Below, in pieces: positions 289-23,340 of a stretch of 64,000 nt of DNA (the stretch's first letter is position 1; each line of letters begins with the position of its first letter). Location: positions 1 through 64,000 of the forward strand of contig JAIGNY010004481.1 in NCBI GenBank assembly GCA_020152595.1, written 5' to 3'. Both the position numbers and the translations under genes were made by a program. A model generated the notes under the pieces. It was not told the DNA's origin, ran no database searches, and was given only the letters and a program-made list of their open reading frames with translations. This DNA is from Chiridota heheva. Lineage: Eukaryota > Echinodermata > Holothuroidea > Apodida > Chiridotidae.

Positions 289-3016
289 TACTGCAGTACT
301 GCACTTTCTGCAGTAAATCTGAATAATATTGCTGTCTATTTATAAGGGGATCCGAACGTCATCCATTCCACACTTGAAAAGATGTAATCTTTCAGGACAT
401 TTTGTCAATGAAAACATGCAACGATTTGTGCACAAGTGAACACCACACTTTAGGCCAGCATGAGAATTAAAGTTCAAGATTTGCGTCCAAACAATTTTCA
501 AAAGGCATGAGGCTTTTTCTTTTCATTTTTAGCTCCACCCATACACAGAGTGTATGAGTGGAGATTATCAAATCGTACGTGACCTCTCATATGTGCCTGT
601 ACTAACTTTTGCTTAAAAATGCATCTCCTCCTAGGTTTTTACAGTTTTGCTCTTGAGATTCTGGCTCAAGCGAGATTTTTGTATCTAAATTTAAGCTTGT
701 ATTTCGTTAAGAGATATTCCATGTATTTTTTTAATTAGAGCTCTCGAAAGGTTTTAACAAAGTATAAGATTTTATGGTAATTTCGCTAAAAATAGCTCTA
801 TCCTATTCGCGTTTCGTACCGGTACCGCTCCGGGCCATGGTATTGGTCAGTTGGTATACACGCGTGTTTATTAGTTCTTTGTATGGACATATATGTTTAA
901 TCATATCGCAGTATTTTCCAATCAGAATTCGGACATTCTGCTATGAATATGCAAATTCTCGTAATCTTATTTAGGTCACGCTGTATCGGATTGGATTACT
1001 GAGTTGTATGATAGGTTATGACATAGCCTAGAAGATAACGTGAAGTTGTTGTTTGATCATTTTCGCTTGTCGTATAGTAAGTCCCAAGTGTCAGTAAGTT
1101 TTGTGCTACATTGCATCGCGGGGCTAGAGTGTTATACTTCAATCCACTAACGTTAAGGATAAAGTTTTGTTGGGTTGGTGAACGCAGCGGCATTGCGTAA
1201 ACCGTAATTTGCCGTATGGGCAGCAGATTGCCAGAAATAAAAGTTTGTTTCAAACCTATAAGTTTTCGTGGACACGTGGAAGAATCATCGCTGGGTACGG
1301 TAGTATTCAATGGGGCATCCCAGGGCTGCTAATAAGGTTGTGACGTTTAACCGTTTAGGAAATCATGCTACGTGTAAACGAATGTTAATTCAATTTTTAT
1401 GTTTGCTTTTTCAAGTTCGCATAAATTCACGAAACCATCTAACCAACCTTATCATTTCAATCTTTACCCGCTATGTCATTGCCTTCACATTTTTCACCCG
1501 GGGCGTTATGCATATCACTAATTATTTTCACGGTACTTCGGATGGGATGCATGGAATGTAGCTAGCTTGTGCTCATGAGGAAGGCGCTAGGCCCAGGCTA
1601 GCACTCATTAACATAACCCGTCAAATACACACAAGAAATTTTCGCCTATATCCCTTAATTATCAAATCACAATACACATCACCCAACCACTGATCGGTGT
1701 AAAAGTAAATTCTACCCCCTAGTAAATTTTGGCCTCCCGGCTCTTATTTCCTAGGAAATGTGGGCCCCCAGACAATTAAGCTGCAGCCATCCAGTAAATT
1801 TGTTCCCCCTCATAGTAAAACAGTACGCTAGGAAATTTGGGCCGCCCTTCTTTCCTATGAAATATGGAGACAACAACTTTAATTCTTTTCCAATCTACCT
1901 ATTCCTAAAGTTGGCCCAGAAGAATTTGCGTTAAAGGTTAGAAACACACAAGTCATGAATCAAACCACGGTAGCGATGCAAAGAAATCAAAATTCATACG
2001 CAACGATGTCCTTTGGCCTATCGTTGAAAGTATCCCAGCTTTTAAGAGTTCTAATGTGCAGTGAAAACATTAAAGAAATTCTCGTTTCACATCAATTGTG
2101 ATAAAATTACAGATTATTTTCGTGTCTTTTATTATTTACTTCAAAGAGTAACAAATATTTCAAAACTAATAATTGTATTTACGGACGGATTAAATGTTTG
2201 CCTGGGTATTGTTATTGTTTTTACGACCGGATTACTAGGGAGTTGTTGCTTGGATTACGAGTCACAAAATCAGCACGTGTTGTCATAAATTAATGCGGTA
2301 ATAGCCTGCTCATGCTCAAAACTCGGTAATATTCTCACGCCGTGTGATCTGTCATCCCCAGTTGCGGAAGTCACACGTGGTCGCTATAGCGTCTCTTAAC
2401 ATGAGTACTTACGGACAACAAACAATCATTCTCGGTTTTGGGGGAAAAAACTTCAAACACTTGAATATTTATTGCTATATAACAGCCCCATTAGTGCTGA
2501 TTTGGGTGAAAATACATTGGCTAAATCATTCAAAAAGCTATGCCAAGTGCACTAAATTATACTGTGCAGCAATTAGACCGCATCACTGCTCTAAACGCAT
2601 TTTGGCAGTGACCCAGATTTTCTCGCAGCAGTAGCGACATCAAAGGGGAATTACGTAATCCTGATGATTATTATTACATTGATAGGATGAATGTTAAGTA
2701 TTATATTTCGAGTGTTTCCTTAAGTTTAAACAAACAGAAAAACGGGGAAGAACCAATTTTAATTTCATATTAAAGTAGCCATGCTAGTTACGCGAAACTT
2801 ACATTATGCGTTCATATCAAGGTTTTTATTTAGGTCCTATCATCAATGATGACTTGAAATCGACAGAGGCGTTGGAGCTGGGAAGGGGATGTGCGGGCTT
2901 CAGCCTAATAATTTTAGGTGAACGTATCACATGTCACCTTATCTCATTAAATCCCCAATATTTTGAACGCTCCGCCACCCTGATAAGACAATTGAATTCT
3001 GAGATGGCATGAGGTG
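289..3016. other. Unassigned DNA, no supported gene
   Basis: No exon with recognisable protein similarity, no RNA gene and no long repeat could be supported. The short open frames here have no family signature. A loose, partly repeated phrase built on AGTAAATTT and CCTAGGAAAT with C-rich stretches occurs around 1700-1870 and may be an old repeat. Confidence 0.5.
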
Positions 3017-3064
3017 GATGAGATCATGGAGCTATAAACTTAGTTTATAGCTCCATGATGAGAT
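3017..3064. mobile_element. 32-bp palindromic insertion with 8-bp target-site duplication (copy 1)
   Basis: Bases 3025-3056 form a near-perfect palindrome with arms CATGGAGCTATAAAC and GTTTATAGCTCCAT around a TTA loop. It is flanked by the identical 8-mer GATGAGAT at 3017-3024 and 3057-3064. An 8-bp duplication is typical of hAT-type cut-and-paste insertion. A second copy with the same ends and its own duplication lies at 10556-10597. I infer a minimal non-autonomous DNA element or its internally deleted remnant. Confidence 0.7.
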
Positions 3065-4576
3065 GCAGCGAAAGCATTTTCATACAATGAATCGTTGACA
3101 CTTCAGGGCCGTAAATTCACATCTTCAACGTGAAGGAGCTTGCTTGGCTTCTTATCCAAACTTGGAGTCACAAGATACGAATTGAAACTCAAACAAATCC
3201 CCCTTTCCCCCCCCCAATTGTGTATTTTTTTTTTTATTTTATTCTATAGGCCTATACCTAAAAAGTAGGGGAATATGTATCCGGGAATCACGGCAGTACG
3301 CTTTTTCCGTAGCGAAACTAAAACTAAACAAATTGGAAGTCCTATGCAGAAAAAATCAAACATGCAAACGTCATAGCCTAACATATTTTTTTAAATACAT
3401 GTAGATGGTTGCTAATGTTCGTAATTTTGTTTTTAAAATGTATTGTTGCAGAATATGCTGCACTCAAAGTGACCTTTGCTCTCCGATAACGTCGGTAATC
3501 GACCGTTACATAGTGGAAACCTCCATTAACTCCTACATTAAAATTACTACAAAACGGCTTACAACTTTTGTTAGAAGCATATTTTTTCAACTGTCACTAT
3601 TCTGAAATAAAAGAGGTAGTATGCTGCATATACCCGGCCCTAAGTTCGCGAATACCGCGCGGGCCATGAAATCAGGTGCGTTATTTTTTTTTAAAGAAGT
3701 ATTAAGTATTTTCTCTCGTTTCTTTCTTTTTAGTGAGATAAGTATATTTTATCCTTGTATTATCTATTTTATTTCTTTACTGTTAAGCATGCAACAGTAG
3801 TTTCTTATTTTTCATTTGCTTTATGTTTATTTTAATAACCTTCTTTTTTTGTTCTGCGCGATTTAAAAAAATTTTAATTCTTGTTTCTCGCATTTCAGAT
3901 ACTGTCATGTCTGGCATAGGAATCAAAAAGATTTTTCTTCTATTCAAATTGTTTACCTAAATCAAAGGAGACATATTCTTGCTTGTATGACCCTGGGATT
4001 ACCATTATCAAACACTAAGGGCCGTAATTATTGGAAAGTCTTTCCTGCCCCCTGGCCACGCACCACTATATACCCAATATTTAAATAAAAATGTGTTTTA
4101 AAAACATGTTAGCCTCAGATGTGTGTTAGGGTGTGGTGCGTTAAGCCTGTCCCCATATGTGAGTAAGAACTCCGACGTAGCATGATAATTTTGAAGTTTA
4201 TGTTGTACGTCCCAGAAAGAAGTTACACAATATCCTACAGCAGCAACTACTACAAACTGACAAAACGATATATGAATACAACATTTATAGGCCTACCCTC
4301 TGTGTTCCCCCAGCCATTATGAGGGAATACTCCCACAATGGGGGTATTCCCCTCTCTACCCTATTTAACAATTTTCTTTGTCTCCTGTTGTATAAATAAA
4401 ATTCGTTCTCCACACGACGACCGTGGCAGTTACACTTGTATTTAGCTATTGATCCCATCCAATATTTTAGTCTATTTGCCTACTGGGGACAAGAAATACC
4501 AATAAAAAAAGATACGTTGGACGAAATTTACCATCCCATTTCCTGTAGCCACAACCGCCTCTGCCCAACGCTGTTT
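3065..4576. other. Unassigned DNA with a short dispersed repeat
   Basis: No gene is supported. Bases 3476-3530 (CTCTCCGATAACG to TCCATTAAC) recur as the reverse complement at 58465-58515, and the adjoining phrase TTTTGTTAGAAGCATA recurs near 8211. This marks a dispersed repeat of unknown class. Confidence 0.5.
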
Positions 4577-7010
4577 CTCCTCCCTTACCCTCCCCTCCAC
4601 CTCCCCTCCACCCTCCACCCCCCCCCCCCCTCCCCTCCCTCCACCCTCCTGCTCCACCCTCCCCTCCACCCTCCCCTCCACCCTCCTCCACCCTCCTCCT
4701 CCACCCTCCCCTCCACCCTCCACTCCACCCTCCCTCCACCCTCCTGGCTCCACCTCCCCTCCACCCTCCTCCACCCTCCTGCTCCACCTCCCTCCACCCT
4801 CCCCTCCACCCTCCTGCTCCACCCTCCTGCTCCACCCTCCTGCTCCACCCTCCTGCTCCACCCTCCCGCCCACCCTCCTGCTCCACCCTCCTGCCCACCC
4901 TCCCCTCCTCCACCCTCCCACTCCACCCTCCCTGCTCCACCCCTCCCGCTCCACCCTCCACCCTGGGCTCCACCCTCCCGCTCCACCTCCCCCTCCACCC
5001 TCCTGCTCCACCTCCCGCCCACCCTCCCCTCCACCCTCCTGCTCCACCCTCCCGCTCCACCCTCCTGCCCACCCTCCTGCCCACCCTCCCGCTCCACCCT
5101 CCCGCTCCACCCTCCCGCTCCACCCTCCCGCTCCACCCTCCCGCTCCACCCTCCTCCACCCCCTGCTCCACCCTCCCTCCACCTCCTCCCGCTCCACCCT
5201 CCTGCTCCACCCCTCCCGCTCCACCCTCCCCGCTCCACCCTCCTGCCCACCCTCCTGCTCCACCCTCCCGCCCCACCCTCCCTGCTCCACCCTCCTGCTC
5301 CACCCTCCCGCTCCACCTCCTGCCCACCCTCCTGCTCCACCTCCTGGCTCCACCCTCCTCCACCTCCCCTCCACCCTCCCGCTCCACCCCGCTCCCTCCA
5401 CCCTCCCTGCTCCACCCTCCCCTCCACCCCCGCTCCACCTCCCCGCTCCACCCTCCTCCACCCTCCTGCTCCACCTCCTGCCCACCTCCTCCTCCACCCT
5501 CCTGCTCCACCCTCCCCTGCCCACCCTCCTGCTCCACCCTCCCGCTCCACCCTCCCGCTCCACCCTCCTGCTCCACCTCCCTGCTCCACCCTCCCGCCCA
5601 CCCTCCCCGCTCCACCCTCCTGCTCCACCCTCCGCTCCACCCTCCTGCTCCACCTCCCACTCCACCCTCCCTGCCCACCTCCCGCTCCACCTCCCACTCC
5701 ACCTCCTGGCTCCACCCTCCACCCTCCTGCTCCACCTCCCGCTCCACCCTCCTGCTCCACCCTCCTCCTCCACCCTCCTGCTCCACCTCCCCTCCACCCT
5801 CCCGCTCCACCTCCCGCTCCACCCCTCCCGCTCCACCCTCCCGCTCCACCCTCCGCTCCACCCTCCCGCTCCACCCTCCCGCTCCACCTCCTGCTCCACC
5901 CTCCGCTCCACCCTCCCGCTCCACCCTCCCGCTCCACCCTCCCGCTCCACCTCCTCCGCTCCACCTCCTGCCCACCTCCTGCTCCACCCTCCCGCTCCAC
6001 CCTCCCTCCCCCTCCCCCTCCCCTCCCCTCCCCTCCCTCCCCTCCCTCCACCCCCTCCTCCACCCTCCTCCACCCTCCCTGATCCACCTCCCCTCCCCTC
6101 CCCTCCACCCCCCCTCCACCCTCCTCCACCCTCCCCTCCACCCCCCTCCACCCTCCTCCACCCTCCCCTTCCCCTCCCCTCCCTTTAACCCTCCCCTTCC
6201 ACCCTCCTCCACCCTCCCCCTCCACCCTCCCTGCTCCACCCTCCCGCTCCACCCTCCCTGATCCACACTCCTGATCCACCCTCCTGATCCACCCTCCCGA
6301 TCCACCCTCCTGATCCACCTCCCCTCCACCTCCCTTCCACCCTCCCCTTCCCCTCCCCTCCACCCTCCTCCCCTCCACCCTCCCCTCCACCTCCCCTCCT
6401 CCCCTCCTCCTCCCCTCTCCCTCCACCCTCCTCCACCCTCCCCTTCCCCCCCTCCCTTCCACCCTCCCCCTCCACCTCCCCTCCACCTCCCCTCCACCCC
6501 TCCCCTCCACCCTCCCCTCCACCCCCTCCACCCTCCCCCTCCACCCTCCCCTCCCCTCCCCCTCCACCCTCCCCTCCACCCCCCCTCCACCTCCCTCCCC
6601 CCGACACCCTCCCCTCCACCCTCCCCTCCACCCTCCCCTCCACCCTCCCCTCCACCCTCCCCTCCACCCCTCCCTCCACCCTCCCGCTCCACCCTCCGCT
6701 CCACTCCTCCCGCTCCACCCTCCCGCTCCACCCTCCCGCTCCACCCTCCCTCCACCTCCCCTCCACCCCTCCCTCCCCTTCACCCTCCCCTTCACCCTCT
6801 CCTCCACCCTCCTGCTCCACTCTTCCCTTCCCTTCCCCTCCCCAACCCCCATCCTCCCCCTCCACCCTCTCCCTTCACCCTCCTGTTTCACCCTCCCTGT
6901 TTCACCCTACCGCTCCACTCCTCCTCCACCCTCCCATTCCACCCTACCGCTCCATTCTCCCCCTCCCCCTCCACCCTCCCCTCCACACTTCCCCTCCACC
7001 CTCCCCTCCA
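4577..7010. repeat. 2.4-kb polypyrimidine minisatellite, CTCCACCCTCC(C/T)G units
   Basis: The plus strand is almost entirely C and T with regular A and occasional G, built from 10-13-bp units such as CTCCACCCTCCTG, CTCCACCCTCCCG and CTCCACCCTCCCC. Long open frames on both strands (Pro/Ser/Leu-rich or Gly/Glu/Trp-rich) are a by-product of the repeat and lack any domain, so I do not call genes. Such strand-asymmetric mirror-like tracts are known to be able to form triplex DNA; that is inference here. Confidence 0.95.
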
Positions 7011-7528
7011 CAGGTAGGTCGTTTTAAATAAATTATTTCCACGTGGATGTTTGGAAATACGAAGATTTTTTGTTAAGTTCAAGGGGGAAAACAGTAATTT
7101 CTTCATCAATTATGGTAAAAAATCAAATGAAACACAATTAGGGGCATAACTTTAAAACGAAATTCCATTATATTTCATATGTATGATGTTTCTTTGAAGT
7201 CACAAACAAATTTGGCAGCATGATTTCTATGTTATGTTTCGTTCCTCATTAAACAAGATTTTTTTAACAGTATTTGACAAAGAAAGTACATGAAATATAT
7301 GATTTTTTATCGGGATAATAATTTATCTATTTAAGAACTAATTATGTAAGAATAAAAACACCAGATATCAATATTTAAGTAACGATCGTACATGTCAACT
7401 TGACTTCACACACACTCATACGAGAAGCAGGAAGTGCATGTTTGCACATTACATAGTGAATATAACGGTAGCGTCTTTCAAGTGGTGGATTAGCATGGGT
7501 TGCTATGGAAGGTCTATTAATAAGAACC
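7011..7528. other. Unassigned AT-rich DNA
   Basis: Nothing recognisable beyond AT-rich single-copy-looking sequence between the minisatellite and the SINE. Confidence 0.5.
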
Positions 7529-7802
7529 GACGACGACGAGTAAACGCACATTTACAATGACGGGGTTGTCACCTGCGTAATCGCTTATGATAGTAACAAT
7601 GCTATCATGAAACGCTTAATACGATCCGGACGAAAACACAGGTACGACGTACGGACAGACATAACATCAACAACCAAGTCAATGTCCACGGCCTTTGATA
7701 ACCAGTTGTGGTGCACTGGCGTGTCTACCCAACCCAGGCTTGAACCCAGGACCGCGTGGTCTGTAGACATGTATGATAACCGCTACACCACAGTAGGTAG
7801 AT
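7529..7802 (-). mobile_element. tRNA-derived SINE, family A, copy 1
   Basis: On the minus strand the element starts near 7802 with ATCTACCTACTGTGGTGTAG. The A box is TGGTGTAGCGG and the B box GGGTTCAAGCC, so it has a pol III promoter of tRNA type. A central block containing AACTGGTTATCAAAGGCC follows, and the 3' end is a CGTCGTCGTC run. Two more copies lie at 37187-37468 (minus) and 40866-41133 (plus). The imperfect AAGAACC repeat on both sides may be the target duplication. Confidence 0.85.
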
Positions 7803-9329
7803 AATTGTTAAGAACCTGGCGAAGATTTCGCTTGATACTTGCGTTAAAAGGGCGTCCACTTATGACAACTGGCTTTACGGTTAAACGGTTATGGACCGTA
7901 ATGGTGACAGCTGTACATTTATGATAAAATGCTAACTGTCACAACCTTAGTTGCTAGTTTGGCCGATTACTGGCTAATTATAACATATTTGGCCGTTTTG
8001 AAACATGTTTGGTTAGTAATCTTTTTTCAGTACCGGCCAAATGAAATTAATCTAACATTTATGGAGATTAATGTGTAAATGTTAAACTTTTTGTTATGTT
8101 TGCAAAATGTATTTTCTAACTATATATTGTGGTGGAATTTACCTATGACCTCGCCAACGTCATTAATCAAGTGAGACATGATGGCACCATGCATTGAATG
8201 TCACATAGCTTTTGTTAGAAGCATAATTTTTCAGACATCGCTATAACATGAACCTCATCGCACCCACCGCAAAACTAAGTCATTACTGAGAACTAATCTG
8301 ACAGTCATTCACAACTAACCTCGTTTGGCACATATGACCTGACTGTTAAGGTGCCATTACACCCAAACAAACAAACTGAATACAACTCATACGGGAAAGT
8401 TGAAACTCTTGAATTTTTAACATGATGAATAATTGCCCACAAATGGAATGCACCTCAAATCAAACTTTAAAAACATTATAAAAGTACATATGACAAAAAA
8501 AAAAATCACTGAAAGCAATCAATTCTTCTTGCATTGTAATGGGTTGAGCTATAACATCATTGATGTCTAGTTTATTATCTATTTCTAGTGTAAAGTGTCT
8601 TCCATGATGTAATGATTTACAATCTAAAGTCAAGAGTGGATGCATGCCAGGGGTTTCGATGTGTGAAGATCAAAGCTGAGTATTGGCGGCAAGTGCATGC
8701 GGGTACTATGTAAATAATGCGCAAGTATACCCTTTATAGCTGTTGGATGATTTAGAACTTGAATTTTTGTAATAGAAAGCCTTTTTTTCTTCATAATAAT
8801 GATTTTTTTTTAATTCGGCAGGAGGTTTTGGAGCATGCAAGCAGTGGATGCAAATCTAAACTTTCATTCTCATGGCCTTAGTCAATTTCACCATATTCGC
8901 AACAATTTCCTGCACAAATATTGCACCAAAGCAAACTAGGAGATTTAGCCTTATAGGCCTCTAAATGTGACCGATCTTATACTGGCTGTAATGGTAAACT
9001 GTTTCAATATCAAATGAACCATACAGAAAACAAGTTTTGCAAATGTTTTAATCGTATCGATTATATTATCATTAATTTTGGACCAAACATTCCCAATTTT
9101 GGACCAAATATCTTGATCTTTCATTTTGGATCCAAAATCTTCAAATTTAGACCTGAATGTACAACATAAAAGCCAAAAGCCTTCAGATAGAGAAGTATAT
9201 GTCTTAATAAATAGGCTATTAGGGCCAAGCCCCAACCCTCTACCCCCACCCCAATAACTTTCAAAGCAATACAAAGATCTTTACCTTTTCATCCGATGGG
9301 CAATTGCCAACACTTAATTGTCTCACAGT
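7803..9329. other. Unassigned DNA
   Basis: No gene supported. It contains a piece near 8205-8235 (TTTTGTTAGAAGCATAA) shared with the repeat at 3560, and local imperfect duplication around 9064-9140 (TTTTGGACCAAA repeated). Confidence 0.45.
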
Positions 9330-10360: not shown

Positions 10361-10555
10361 CTGCCCGAGGTACGTTGACGTTGTGTATGTTGACTGCAAT
10401 ATCAAATACGATGCGATTGTATGACTGAATGGTTTCCCCCTACGAGCGATGACGTAATGCAGCGGTTATAGACATGACACGGCAGTCCTCTTACAAACCA
10501 TTATTATGTAAATTACATTGGAGAAGCGTTGCAGGCCATTGGCAAAACTTTTCTC

Positions 10556-10597
10556 GGTTATATCATGGAGCTATTAACTTTAGCTCCATGGTTATAT
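10556..10597. mobile_element. 26-bp palindromic insertion with 8-bp target-site duplication (copy 2)
   Basis: Bases 10564-10589 read CATGGAGCTATTAAC then TTTAGCTCCAT, a shorter version of the palindrome at 3025-3056. The identical 8-mer GGTTATAT flanks it at 10556-10563 and 10590-10597. The flanking duplication differs from that of copy 1, so the two are separate insertion events of the same module. Confidence 0.7.
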
Positions 10598-10777
10598 CCA
10601 AGAGAAAAGGTGTCAAAGTGCGTTGGATCGGATATAACCGAAGAAAATGTGTACGTTACACGCTGAGTTTTGGTGACGTTTGATGACGTGTCAGAATCAG
10701 AACCAATGGAAAGAGTTTAGGCCTGAGTACGTGGAAACAAAATGTGGAGACTGCTGCAGCCAGGCAGCGCAGGCATG

Positions 10778-14298: not shown

Positions 14299-15944
14299 TT
14301 AGTGTGTGAGGGAAGAAAGAGTGTTTATATACATTCTTTTTAGCATAAAAACCTGGAAATTAAGGTCATGATTATTTCTTATATTAGTTCTGACGGTGGG
14401 GATAAGTTCATCTTTATTGATGGCGACAAGATTGTTATTGATTTTATATAGCATATGTAGCCGGGTGTTGTATCTTCTTGTTTTTAGCAGGGGCCAATCC
14501 AATTTATGAAGCATGTTTTTACACTAGATTTATAAAAGTAGTCTGCCATACAGAACCTGGCTGCTCTCCTTTGAATAGATTCAAGTTTATCCACATCGCA
14601 CTGGTGATGGGGGTCCCAGACTGCTGATGCGTACTCAAGTACTGGCCTGACTAGAGCTTTATAAGCAGTGAATTTAACGTCGGTGGGACAGTTTGAGAGG
14701 CTACGTTTTAATAGGCTAAATACAGAGTTAGCTTTCTTGGTTATGTTATGTATATGTTTATCCCATCTAAGTTTGTTATCAATTTCAACACCTAGGTATG
14801 GGTAGGAGTTGACATGTTTTAGTGGCTGGTTGCATAAGGTATAAACAGGTGATTTAAAGCTTTTCTTAGAGGAAATTGACAAGATGTAGCATTTAGATGG
14901 GTTGAAATTCATTTGCCATTGTTCAAGTTTGTTAAGATCATCTTGGAGGATTTGTTGGTCAGAGGGGTTATCAATTGTTCTGTACACAAGGCAATCATCA
15001 GCAAACAGTCTAACTGTGCTGTTTATATTATCAGGGATGTCATTTACATATAAAAGGAAAAGTAATGGACCCAAAACAGTACCTTGTGGTACACCGGTTA
15101 AAACCTGTTTAGAATCGGAGATTTCACCATCACAGACAACACGCTGGATGCGGTTGTTGAATGATGCAAACCAGGCCAGGAGATTTCCATCAATGCCATA
15201 TGCGGAAAGTTTGGATAACAGGCGCTGGTGTAGGACTTTATCAAAGGCTTTTGAGAAGTCAAGAATAGCCATAGAGACGTTACTGTTTTGGCCAATTTGT
15301 TTGGAGATATCATTTATTGTTAAGAGGAGTTGTGTTTCAGTCGATCTTTTTGCACTTGTTAGGTATAGTACCATTATCAACAGAGGTTTGAAAGAGATCA
15401 GTTAGAATTTCATAGAGGTCATCAGCGTGTGTTTTTAGAAACCATGGTGGTATTTGGTCAGGACCTGAGGCTTTGTTGGGGTCTAGGTTATGCAGTTGCT
15501 TTTTGACACCTGGGATAATTATAAGTTGGTTTATTTTGCTGTTGGTGAGTGGTTCAGTTACAGGGATTTGGGAGGTGTTTTCTTCTGTGAAAACACTGAA
15601 AAACTGGTCATTTAGAATGTTAGCTTTAATTCTACTGTCACTGCAGAGTTTACCATTATTTAGTAGATCAGACACACCTACAGAGTTAATCTTTTGATAT
15701 AGGACCAGAATGCCTTTGGGTTTTCGTTAAGTGAGTTTTTAAGTTTATCACAGAAGAAGGTGTTTCTAGCTTCTTTGAGGTTTTTACGGACAGCCTTCCT
15801 AAAGCTTTTATAGGTAGTCCAGTCATTGGCTTGTTGATTAGTCTTTAGCTTTTTTAAACAGTTTATGTTTCTTCTGCAGAGACGGCGTTGGATACAGGTG
15901 AACCAGGGCAGATTTAGTTTAGCTGTGGTGAATTTGTGAGGCAT
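14299..15944 (-). pseudogene. LINE linker and reverse transcriptase domain
   Basis: The linker (15944-15678) precedes the start of RT: LHNLDPNKASGPDQIPPWFL (about 15495-15436). A frameshift and a probable deletion of roughly 70 codons around 15340-15380 remove the NYRPIS-type region. From 15380 a 298-codon open frame holds motif A AILDFSKAFDKV (near 15260), motif B LTGVPQGTVLGPLLFLLYVN, the catalytic FADD (about 15002-14991), LGVEIDNKLRW, and PVLEYASAVW. A last frameshift near 14500 leads to LHKLDWPLLKTRRYNTRL. The core active site is intact although the gene is not. Confidence 0.92.
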
Positions 15945-16059: not shown

Positions 16060-16790
16060 TTCATTCGTTTTATGTAAGCTTTTTCTTTAAATAAATTTTA
16101 CGTTTAGGCAACTTTTTACAAGGAGGGGAGATGTTTAGGGTCAGTTCAACAATATCATGGTCACTTATACTGGGAATGACATTAGCTGAGGTAACAGCTG
16201 GTGATTTGTTAGTAAAAACAAGATCAAGGATGTTGTTATCTCTGGTGGGTGACTGCACCATTTGTGTGAGATTGAATGAATTGGTCACTTCAAGAAGAAT
16301 TTTGGCTGCTTCGGAGGAAACGTTAGTTCCTGAAATAATGTTTTGACCCCAGTCAATGTTAGGTTGGTTTAAATCACCAGCAAGAATAACATTGTTTTTG
16401 TCAGCATTTTTACCAAGCTTTGGAGGGATTTTTTCAACTCAAGTAGGCTAGTGAGATCATTGTGACTGGGTCTGTAAAATGTTCCTATATACATGTTCTT
16501 TTCCTTAGGAAATTGGAATTTGGTCCAGATAATTTCACAGTCAGAGTCTAATTTAGTGAGCTCAGTGAAAACCAGGTCATTTCTTATTGCCTGTAATACA
16601 CCACCATAACCATTTAAATTTCTATCTTTGCGAACGACTGTATAGTTGTCCGGGAAAATTTCAGCGCCAAATTTTGGAATTAAGCCAGGTTTTAGTGCCA
16701 ATAATGACATCTGGATCTTTTTCTTTCCATGGAGGCCGTCTTGTTTCGAACACTCTGAAAGTTGATAACAAGAAGTTTTAGAACCTTCCT
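16060..16790 (-). pseudogene. LINE AP-type endonuclease domain, frameshifted and catalytically altered
   Basis: The domain begins KLLVINFQSVRNK (about 16784), continues DVIIGTKTWL (about 16713-16684), then NGYGGVLQAIRNDLVF and IIWTKF, AGDLNQPNIDWG (about 16385-16350) and finally SISDHDIVEL with the catalytic SDH at 16165-16157. At least two frameshifts separate these blocks. The block DVIIGTKTWL has K where the family has the metal-binding E (T-E-T-W), which by itself should abolish nicking. In a working element this enzyme nicks target DNA to prime reverse transcription. Confidence 0.85.
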
Positions 16791-16946
16791 TTTTTCCCTT
16801 TTGGGATTTGTTTTCAATTTGACATCAGAATGGTGGTTGGACCCGGAGTCAAGGCCAGAAGAACAATTTTGAACTGGCTCATATGAGTTAGTACACTTGA
16901 TGGAATTGTTAGTTGAGAAGAAAGAATCAGAGAAGTTCATGAAGTC

Positions 16947-17261
16947 ACAAGTGTCACACACCCAGGTACCGCCAGAATGCATGAGATCGCTGTATTTTGT
17001 GTCATCAATGCTACAGCACGTAGTGTGGATCCATAGATCACAATTGTCACACTGTACTGCTTTTTCGGATCTCCTACACTGGAGTCCACACAGGCCACAA
17101 GGTGCCAAACATTCCGAACAAAACCAATCATCAGATGATGATGCAAGAGTATTGTAAGCTGCATTACTAATGCCTGCACACTTACTATGAACCCACGAGT
17201 CACAATCATCACAACAAATACCTTTCTGGTTATTTTTGACAGATTTGTTGCATTGTGTGCA
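16947..17261 (-). pseudogene. Two tandem PHD-like zinc fingers of the LINE
   Basis: Immediately after the 2A motif the frame stays open and shows two fingers of the same pattern: C-x2-C, then C-C-x2-C, W-x-H-x2-C, and a closing W-x-C-x2-C. The first (17261-17109) includes CCDDCDSWVHSKC and DDWFCSEC; the second (17099-16947) includes QCDNCDLWIHTTC and GTWVCDTC. All zinc ligands appear present. PHD fingers usually bind histone tails, and in CR1-group elements they could guide chromatin contact; that role is inference. This part of the frame is the best preserved portion of the element. Confidence 0.88.
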
Positions 17262-17276
17262 AGGATATTTTGGGGA

Positions 17277-17525
17277 GGGTCCAGGATTGCTTTCAATATC
17301 ACCAGAAAGGGTAAGGAATCAAAGGAGTAATTTTCTCCTGCGTGAGTTGAATTTTGACAATTTCCAACTTGATTTGTATGAATGTATTTGCCCATCGATA
17401 CAAAGATAAGTTGCAAGTGGGTGATTTGAATAATCACCAGAGCCAAACAAGACATGGTAAACAGTTCCTGGGGCGTTTAGAGGCAAAATTGATGCCTGAG
17501 ATGAATGAGGTTGCGACGAATACAA
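17277..17525 (-). pseudogene. LINE leader peptide ending in a 2A-like motif
   Basis: The open frame from 17525 ends with RRRKLLL at an in-frame TGA (17321-17319). The same frame then continues FLTLSGDIESNPGP, with the core GDIESNPGP at 17303-17277. This fits the 2A consensus D-(V/I)-E-x-N-P-G-P, at which ribosomes skip a peptide bond between G and P. 2A-like motifs are reported in CR1-type LINEs of sea urchins and other animals. Upstream leucine-rich residues (KLLL, LTL) also match the usual 2A context. The intact element would thus release its leader from the PHD-EN-RT polyprotein. Skipping is inferred and not possible in this copy unless the TGA is read through. Confidence 0.82.
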
Positions 17526-23090: not shown

Positions 23091-23340
23091 GAGACATGAA
23101 TATGCATGTAATATTCAGACATGAATATGCATGTCATATTCAGACATGAATATGCATGTCATATTCAGACATGAATATTCATGTCATATTCAGACATGAA
23201 TATGCATGTTGTATTAACAGACATGAATATGCATGTCATTCACAGACCTGCATATGCAAGTCATATTCAGACATGAATATGCATGAAATATTCAGACATG
23301 AATATGCATGAAATATTCAGACATGATTATGCATGTCATC
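23091..23340. repeat. About 24-bp tandem repeat with palindromic ATGCAT core
   Basis: About ten units of ACATGAATATGCATGTCATA plus TTCAG, some ending GAAATATTCAG. Each unit holds ACATGAATATGCATGT, an imperfect inverted repeat. Confidence 0.92.

Follow-up and report, generated by a model that had tools for sequence, protein, structure and literature searches.

The Drosophila P transposase makes a staggered cut, in which one strand is broken at the 3' end of the element and its complement 17 bp further in, so that 17-nt 3' extensions are left; the enzyme also binds internal sites adjoining the 31-bp terminal repeats (available portions of PMC7776569). Junctions left by P excision in flies have been given in the form duplication, CATGATGAAATAACAT, filler or microhomology, ATGTTATTTCATCATG, duplication (Chan et al., 2010; available portions of PMC2895639). 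The palindromes described here are like these junctions, as far as that text covers them, in having a duplication, an end of up to 17 nt that begins CATG, microhomology or filler, an inverted CATG end and a second duplication. The junction classes also overlap, with microhomology, blunt joins, short and long insertions and loss into the flank found in both. The Drosophila junctions, however, were produced in the laboratory at a single locus and have an 8-bp duplication, whereas those reported here are natural, lie at many sites in one assembly and carry a 7-bp duplication.

Two other members of the P superfamily are relevant. Galileo of Drosophila also makes 7-bp duplications, GTAGTAC in comparison with GTnnnAC here, but it is described as having long terminal inverted repeats and here short ends alone were found (PMC2775673, in the parts covered). 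Zebrafish Pdre2/THAP9 places the superfamily beyond insects and has a 13-bp end, CATACCTGTCAAC, that also begins CAT; in contrast with the present family it has 8-bp duplications and a known full-length element, and the parts of PMC10983969 covered hold no scar catalogue. Among the titles and abstract openings that our literature search listed, with subscription papers and Repbase outside its scope, there was no catalogue of naturally occurring P-type excision scars across a genome.

Here we describe two short palindromes in a 64,000-nucleotide stretch of Chiridota heheva DNA (contig JAIGNY010004481.1, positions 1 to 64,000; referred to as the window) and their relatives in the rest of the genome. 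They are very probably scars, formed where a cut-and-paste transposon from the P superfamily was excised and the break repaired; the short form itself would then be no element. The mechanism is already known; the number of scars is unusual.

Two palindromic insertions in the window

There are two palindromes with flanking direct repeats in the window, both where the initial annotation had placed them. Positions 3017 to 3064 read GATGAGAT, CATGGAGCTATAAACTTAGTTTATAGCTCCAT, GATGAGAT, and positions 10556 to 10597 read GGTTATAT, CATGGAGCTATTAACTTTAGCTCCAT, GGTTATAT. The annotation described the first as a 32-bp insert with a perfect 8-bp duplication and the second as a copy at 10564 to 10589 with a different duplication of its own. 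The flanks are indeed duplicated and the second repeat (GTTATAT) is indeed different, but the lengths need correction. The inserts are taken to be 33 and 27 bp and the duplications 7 bp because only a CATG...CATG frame with a 7-bp duplication fits the 35 loci sampled below; the eighth repeat base is a chance G at both sites.

The first insert, CATGGAG…CTCCATG, lies at 3025 to 3057 and is read as a scar of two inverted 16-nt transposon ends (CATGGAGCTATAAACT) with 1 base between them. It has ATGAGAT on either side, at 3018 to 3024 and 3058 to 3064 on the plus strand. The second, at 10564 to 10590, is read as 16 nt of one end (CATGGAGCTATTAACT), 1 nt, and 10 nt of the other, with GTTATAT at 10557 to 10563 and 10591 to 10597, again on the plus strand. 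When the window was scanned for palindromes in which the 9-bp arms and a flanking repeat of 7-9 bp are both exact, these two sites came up and otherwise only overlapping matches at 23143 to 23185 within a 25-bp tandem array. With one mismatch allowed, ATGGAGCTAT is little above chance in the window alone (8 occurrences compared with a mean of 4.25). A search of the window against Rfam at gathering thresholds gave no matches.

The inserts at both sites are true insertions. The first sits in a dispersed host repeat, the core of whose alignable part is 2874 to 3204; similarity to the empty paralogues (L091-L094) extends on both sides, over at least 2851 to 3235. In the four empty copies aligned the gap is exactly 40 bp, that is, the 33-bp insert plus one 7-bp repeat, and ATGAGAT is present once. 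The second lies in another dispersed repeat, at 10510 to 10724, and exactly 34 bp (27 plus 7) are missing from the four empty paralogues fetched (L109-L112), in which GTTATAT is likewise single. Matches at C603 and C2142 cover positions 70-284 of the query (215 bases) over 181 bp.

Both scarred and empty forms of the site 1 repeat are numerous. Of 582 candidates (window included), the 40 with the highest scores each have a second match over the palindrome and, the window itself apart, are 96-99% identical; with a query of the joined flanks, the 40 best of 563 match at the scar-free length with 96-98% identity. In an alignment of four empty copies, three scarred copies and the window, the scarred copies have substitutions in common, so one scar was multiplied passively with its host repeat. 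The annotation had named flanking sequence shared beyond 8 bp as evidence against mobility. Such sharing is found for the copy at 3025 to 3057, by way of the dispersed repeat, and is absent from most of the sampled loci. The identical 33-bp core recurs at L039, a single site unrelated to this repeat, where the duplication is a different one, GTATCAT. Separately, a scar-like palindrome of about 42 bp is seemingly carried in a second, more diverged dispersed repeat at L055, L066 and L079, where the flanks are in register.

Lengths, cores and junctions across the genome

The genome searched comprises 1.1 Gb in 3744 contigs. The pattern ATGGAGCTA-N(0-30)-TAGCTCCAT has 1013 matches in comparison with 1 for the reversed control, and ATGGAGCTATAAAC occurs 406 times in comparison with 13. 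When the gap is extended to N(31-60) there are 84 matches, and among the 50 of these listed, 27 fall into five clusters of repeated scars. The length distribution is a cliff between gaps of 0-30 and 31-60 with no smear towards MITEs over the gaps of up to 60 covered. The count of 1013 takes in copies multiplied with larger repeats and in tandem arrays. Six of 50 listed palindromes belong to the site 1 host repeat and others may be related; by extrapolation there are perhaps 700-900 independent palindromic scars. The annotation predicted a peak at short lengths if the short form were mobile. Short lengths do dominate, but they are differing repair junctions of 20-45 bp and not copies of one unit.

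Forty of the first 41 listed palindromes were taken with 150 bp on each side, C49:54490 being omitted as a near-copy lying 428 bp from another. Five with site 1 flanks were set aside and the two window sites were also left out, giving 35 loci for the statistics. Mean flank identity in these loci reaches 0.82 for a 7-bp repeat, compared with 0.23-0.32 for the remaining lengths between 4 and 11 bp. hAT elements make an 8-bp duplication, and at 8 bp the flank identity of the 35 loci is 0.25. The 7-bp duplication is exact in 15 of the 35 (shuffled mean 0.5, maximum 5) and matches at six or more of the seven positions in 25 (shuffled mean 1.6), with 10 loci below that level. Its consensus is GTnnnAC.

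Copies of a MITE have one internal sequence in common. Among the 35 loci there are instead 30 distinct cores of 20-45 bp; four cores recur, the commonest, CATGGAGCTATTAATAGCTCCATG, three times. L055, L066 and L079 may descend from one scar-bearing repeat, and when L055 and L066 are dropped there are 15 exact duplications and 25 with at least six of seven among 33 loci, with 28 cores. The two ends are trimmed unequally and one is sometimes lost: at L072, L073, L084, L088 and L089 one end, or most of it, is missing, and at L088 and L089 the second end is wholly absent while the 7-bp duplication is exact. The diversity of the cores and the unequal trimming with duplications kept support one suggestion of the annotation, a remnant of imprecise excision that kept both ends. 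They, and the loss of an end at L088 and L089, speak against the other, that this is one of the smallest mobilised inserts known.

The junctions of 49 scars were parsed (the 35 loci, the two window sites and 12 single-end loci), with ends matched to CATGGAGCTATTAACTGA or to an ATAAACT variant. Microhomology was found in 10, a blunt join in 1, an insert of 1-3 nt in 16 and an insert of more than 3 nt in 22; the parse of L075 and L083 is unreliable since the script chose a repeat other than the likely one. The commonest core joins at a TTAA microhomology. Templated filler is unconvincing for the 14 inserts as a set, the combined p of 0.047 being carried by L073 and the mis-parsed L083. Copies of the end sequence do lie within L073 and within some cores with a gap of 31-60 (for example at C1277 and C958).

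We also took 20 loci that have a single 18-nt end, lie outside arrays and are not among the listed palindromes. Most of these, too, are scars: twelve of them have a duplication of at least six of seven within 17-74 bp, in comparison with two of 20 in a control window. An element interior behind the 18-nt end was shown at none of the 20, with L076, L085, L086 and L090 ambiguous. The ends of the window family are recognisable for up to 18 nt and fade over positions 19-21, with no stop at 17: position 19 is A in 13, G in 12, T in 4 and C in 1 of 30, and position 20 is A in 18 of 30.

P-transposase loci and a second family of probable scars

There are 46 matches in the genome to PF21787, the RNase H domain of P-type transposases, with a best E of 5.3e-28, and 20 of these places were examined at 9.9 kb each. 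No intact donor with CATGGAGCTATTAACTGA ends was found among the 20; the only ends of this type lie at L017 and are scar-like. L017, in which a P transposase is located between scar-like sites, was considered as a donor and rejected, as its paralogues at C793 and C3111 have no element border. Scans for inverted ends with exact duplications around the P transposases gave nothing convincing.

The 18-mer CATGGAGCTATTAACTGA itself occurs at 1019 places. Among the first 100 listed there is one convergent pair within 10 kb, at C14, and this 7.1-kb pair (L071), tried as a full-length element, proved to be two separate scars. L074 and L087, tried as the two ends of a 200-bp MITE, are instead copies of a different dispersed repeat that acquired the end sequence by insertion: the fetched copies L095-L098 of that repeat are without the end sequence and, by eye, the duplication at L087 is eroded and the right duplication at L074 lost. 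CATTGAGCTGTAAACAGA in L019, L020 and L028 was rejected as a related terminal repeat and reads as a 3' splice site in a duplicated gene.

One P-transposase locus, L018, carries the sequence GTGAATG, CATGGAAGTAGAAGTAGACTTCTACTTCCATG, GTGAATG, which is a scar of a second family. Palindromes with the ends of this family (CATGGARGTARAA) number 24 in the genome and none in the reversed control. Of 16 that were fetched, 12 have at least six of seven bases of a 7-bp duplication and 8 are exact (shuffled means 1.1 and 0.6). In the 15 of the 24 that start CATGGAAGTAGAAG, the 30 ends retain at most 17 nt of the sequence that stands at L018:8617, with 10 of them retaining exactly 17.

The 17-mer of that end, CATGGAAGTAGAAGAGA, is exact at L018:8617 and has 1 mismatch at L018:3339. 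At L013 it flanks the transposase on either side, each time with 3 mismatches, and at L024 a copy with 2 mismatches lies on one side. The control for these matches is weak: there are 7 at up to 3 mismatches, two of which are the L018 scar, and 100 shuffles gave a mean of 1.1 and a maximum of 8. The 17-mer is A/G-rich and the shuffles were unconstrained; a stricter count had given a mean of 0.1. Beyond the match count, the ends at L013 and L024 are supported by the stretch common to both loci, which starts exactly at CATGGA, and by an inverted partner of the end beyond the transposase, 4887 bp away at L013 and 5594 bp away at L024. For this second end type no matching 7- or 8-bp duplication flanks L013 (4887 bp) or L024 (5594 bp), and at L018 the opposite end was looked for and not found, so all three are weaker as clean insertions. 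As no intact donor was found, we infer the transposase of the window family on three grounds, namely the second family, the start of the ends with CATGGA and the 7-bp duplication.

Several other observations were made near P transposases. At L016:8030-8064 there is a palindrome, ATGGAGGTACCACTTT-CT-AAAGTGGTACCTCCATG, that is close to two 17-nt ends plus 2 bases. At L026:2639-2800 there are tandem copies of CATGGAGATACTATTG followed by GTCAAAC; these look like one more family of scars that lacks one end and was amplified in tandem. L017:7001-7083 is an 83-bp insert with CATGGAGCTAG ends and, by eye, six of seven bases of a duplication; it is found at the same place in L104 and L106, and it sits in a P-transposase region common to two paralogues. 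It may represent a short non-autonomous element or a scar that took up long filler.

Probable excision scars and the rival explanations

The scars most likely arose as follows. An element would insert with a 7-bp target duplication of consensus GTnnnAC, and its transposase would later excise it. Like the Drosophila P transposase, this enzyme would cut one strand where the element meets the flank and the opposite strand about 17 nt further in, at both ends. The donor site would then keep both duplications, and each would carry a protruding 3' strand made up of about 17 nt of the inverted end (CATGGAGCTATTAACTG...). These tails would be trimmed and sealed by end joining, through a few bases of microhomology (for example TTAA giving CATGGAGCTATTAATAGCTCCATG) or with short filler. 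Since the two tails are identical when read inward, joining them would give a near-palindrome of about 20-45 bp. The scar at 3025 to 3057 was subsequently multiplied passively with its host repeat. Both the cutting of the CATGGAGCTATTAACTGA family by a P-superfamily transposase and the repair pathway are inferred.

The annotation preferred an ultra-short palindromic element of 26-33 bp moved as a unit by a transposase acting in trans. The many short palindromes with 7-bp duplications of their own would fit such an element, as would the presence of one 33-bp core in both the host repeat and the unrelated L039 and the recurrence of four cores among the 35 loci, CATGGAGCTATTAATAGCTCCATG three times. 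However, a single mobile unit is difficult to reconcile with 30 different cores in 35 loci or with a commonest core that joins at a TTAA microhomology. The five loci that are without one end or most of it (L072, L073, L084, L088 and L089) make movement as a unit hardly possible, and 33 bp cannot hold the internal sites that the Drosophila P transposase binds (PMC7776569, in the portions available). We regard this explanation as very unlikely. Slightly less likely again is that MITEs or longer elements collapsed at both sites through internal deletions in which transposase cutting had no part. Retention of both ends is what such deletion would produce, but the smear of lengths that the annotation expected of larger elements later collapsed is replaced by 1013 matches at gaps of 0-30 against 84 at 31-60, with 27 of the 50 listed in the longer class in five clusters. 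Further against it, no element interior was demonstrated beyond any of the 20 sampled 18-nt ends (four are ambiguous), and the ends retained in the second family stop at 17 nt.

It is also improbable, if less so than either of these, that the scars are those of another superfamily that makes 7-bp duplications and cuts inside its ends. The link from CATGGAGCTATTAACTGA to a P transposase passes through the second family, and the control for the presence of that family's end at P-transposase loci is weak, which leaves some room for such a source. The second family nevertheless shares the CATGGA start, the 7-bp duplications and the scar anatomy, and has its end sequence at P-transposase loci. The parts of PMC7776569 covered treat the 17-nt internal cut as an unusual feature of P, and 7-bp GTAGTAC duplications are known in Galileo, a member of the P superfamily (PMC2775673, in part). 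Excision by a P-type transposase remains our preferred explanation.

We would more tentatively propose, with rather less than even confidence, a "ghost" family of which little but the excision scars is left. Many hundreds of natural P-type junctions, with few or no intact donors in the genome, would then preserve a history of how double-strand breaks are repaired in the germ line, and would have seeded minisatellites in which the scar and its 7-bp duplication are repeated in tandem. In the laboratory, end joining is studied through the junctions that excised P elements leave, and many hundreds of natural junctions with recognisable borders would show germ-line microhomology, trimming and filler without an experiment. 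Natural scars would also test whether the 17-nt internal cut of P is conserved outside flies, and the second family suggests that it is. They serve as a warning, too, that a perfect target duplication around a short palindrome does not by itself make it a mobile element.

Minisatellites of a scar plus its duplication are present at L099 (40-bp unit), L100 (about 35 bp) and L102 (about 79 bp), with further scar tandems at C2698:415157-415680 and C3161:1755882-1756645. By eye the period is often the scar length plus 7, and this arrangement suggests that excision scars seed satellites.

Finally, the window contains two open reading frames on the minus strand, a reverse transcriptase at 14484 to 15401 and a PHD finger at 16692 to 17318, which look like parts of a LINE. 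The start of the PHD-finger frame, FLTLSGDIESNPGP, resembles a 2A ribosome-skipping motif. A long C-rich array (CCCTCC-like) at 4587 to 7011 is open in several frames on both strands, and GC skew over 4001 to 8000 is -0.67.
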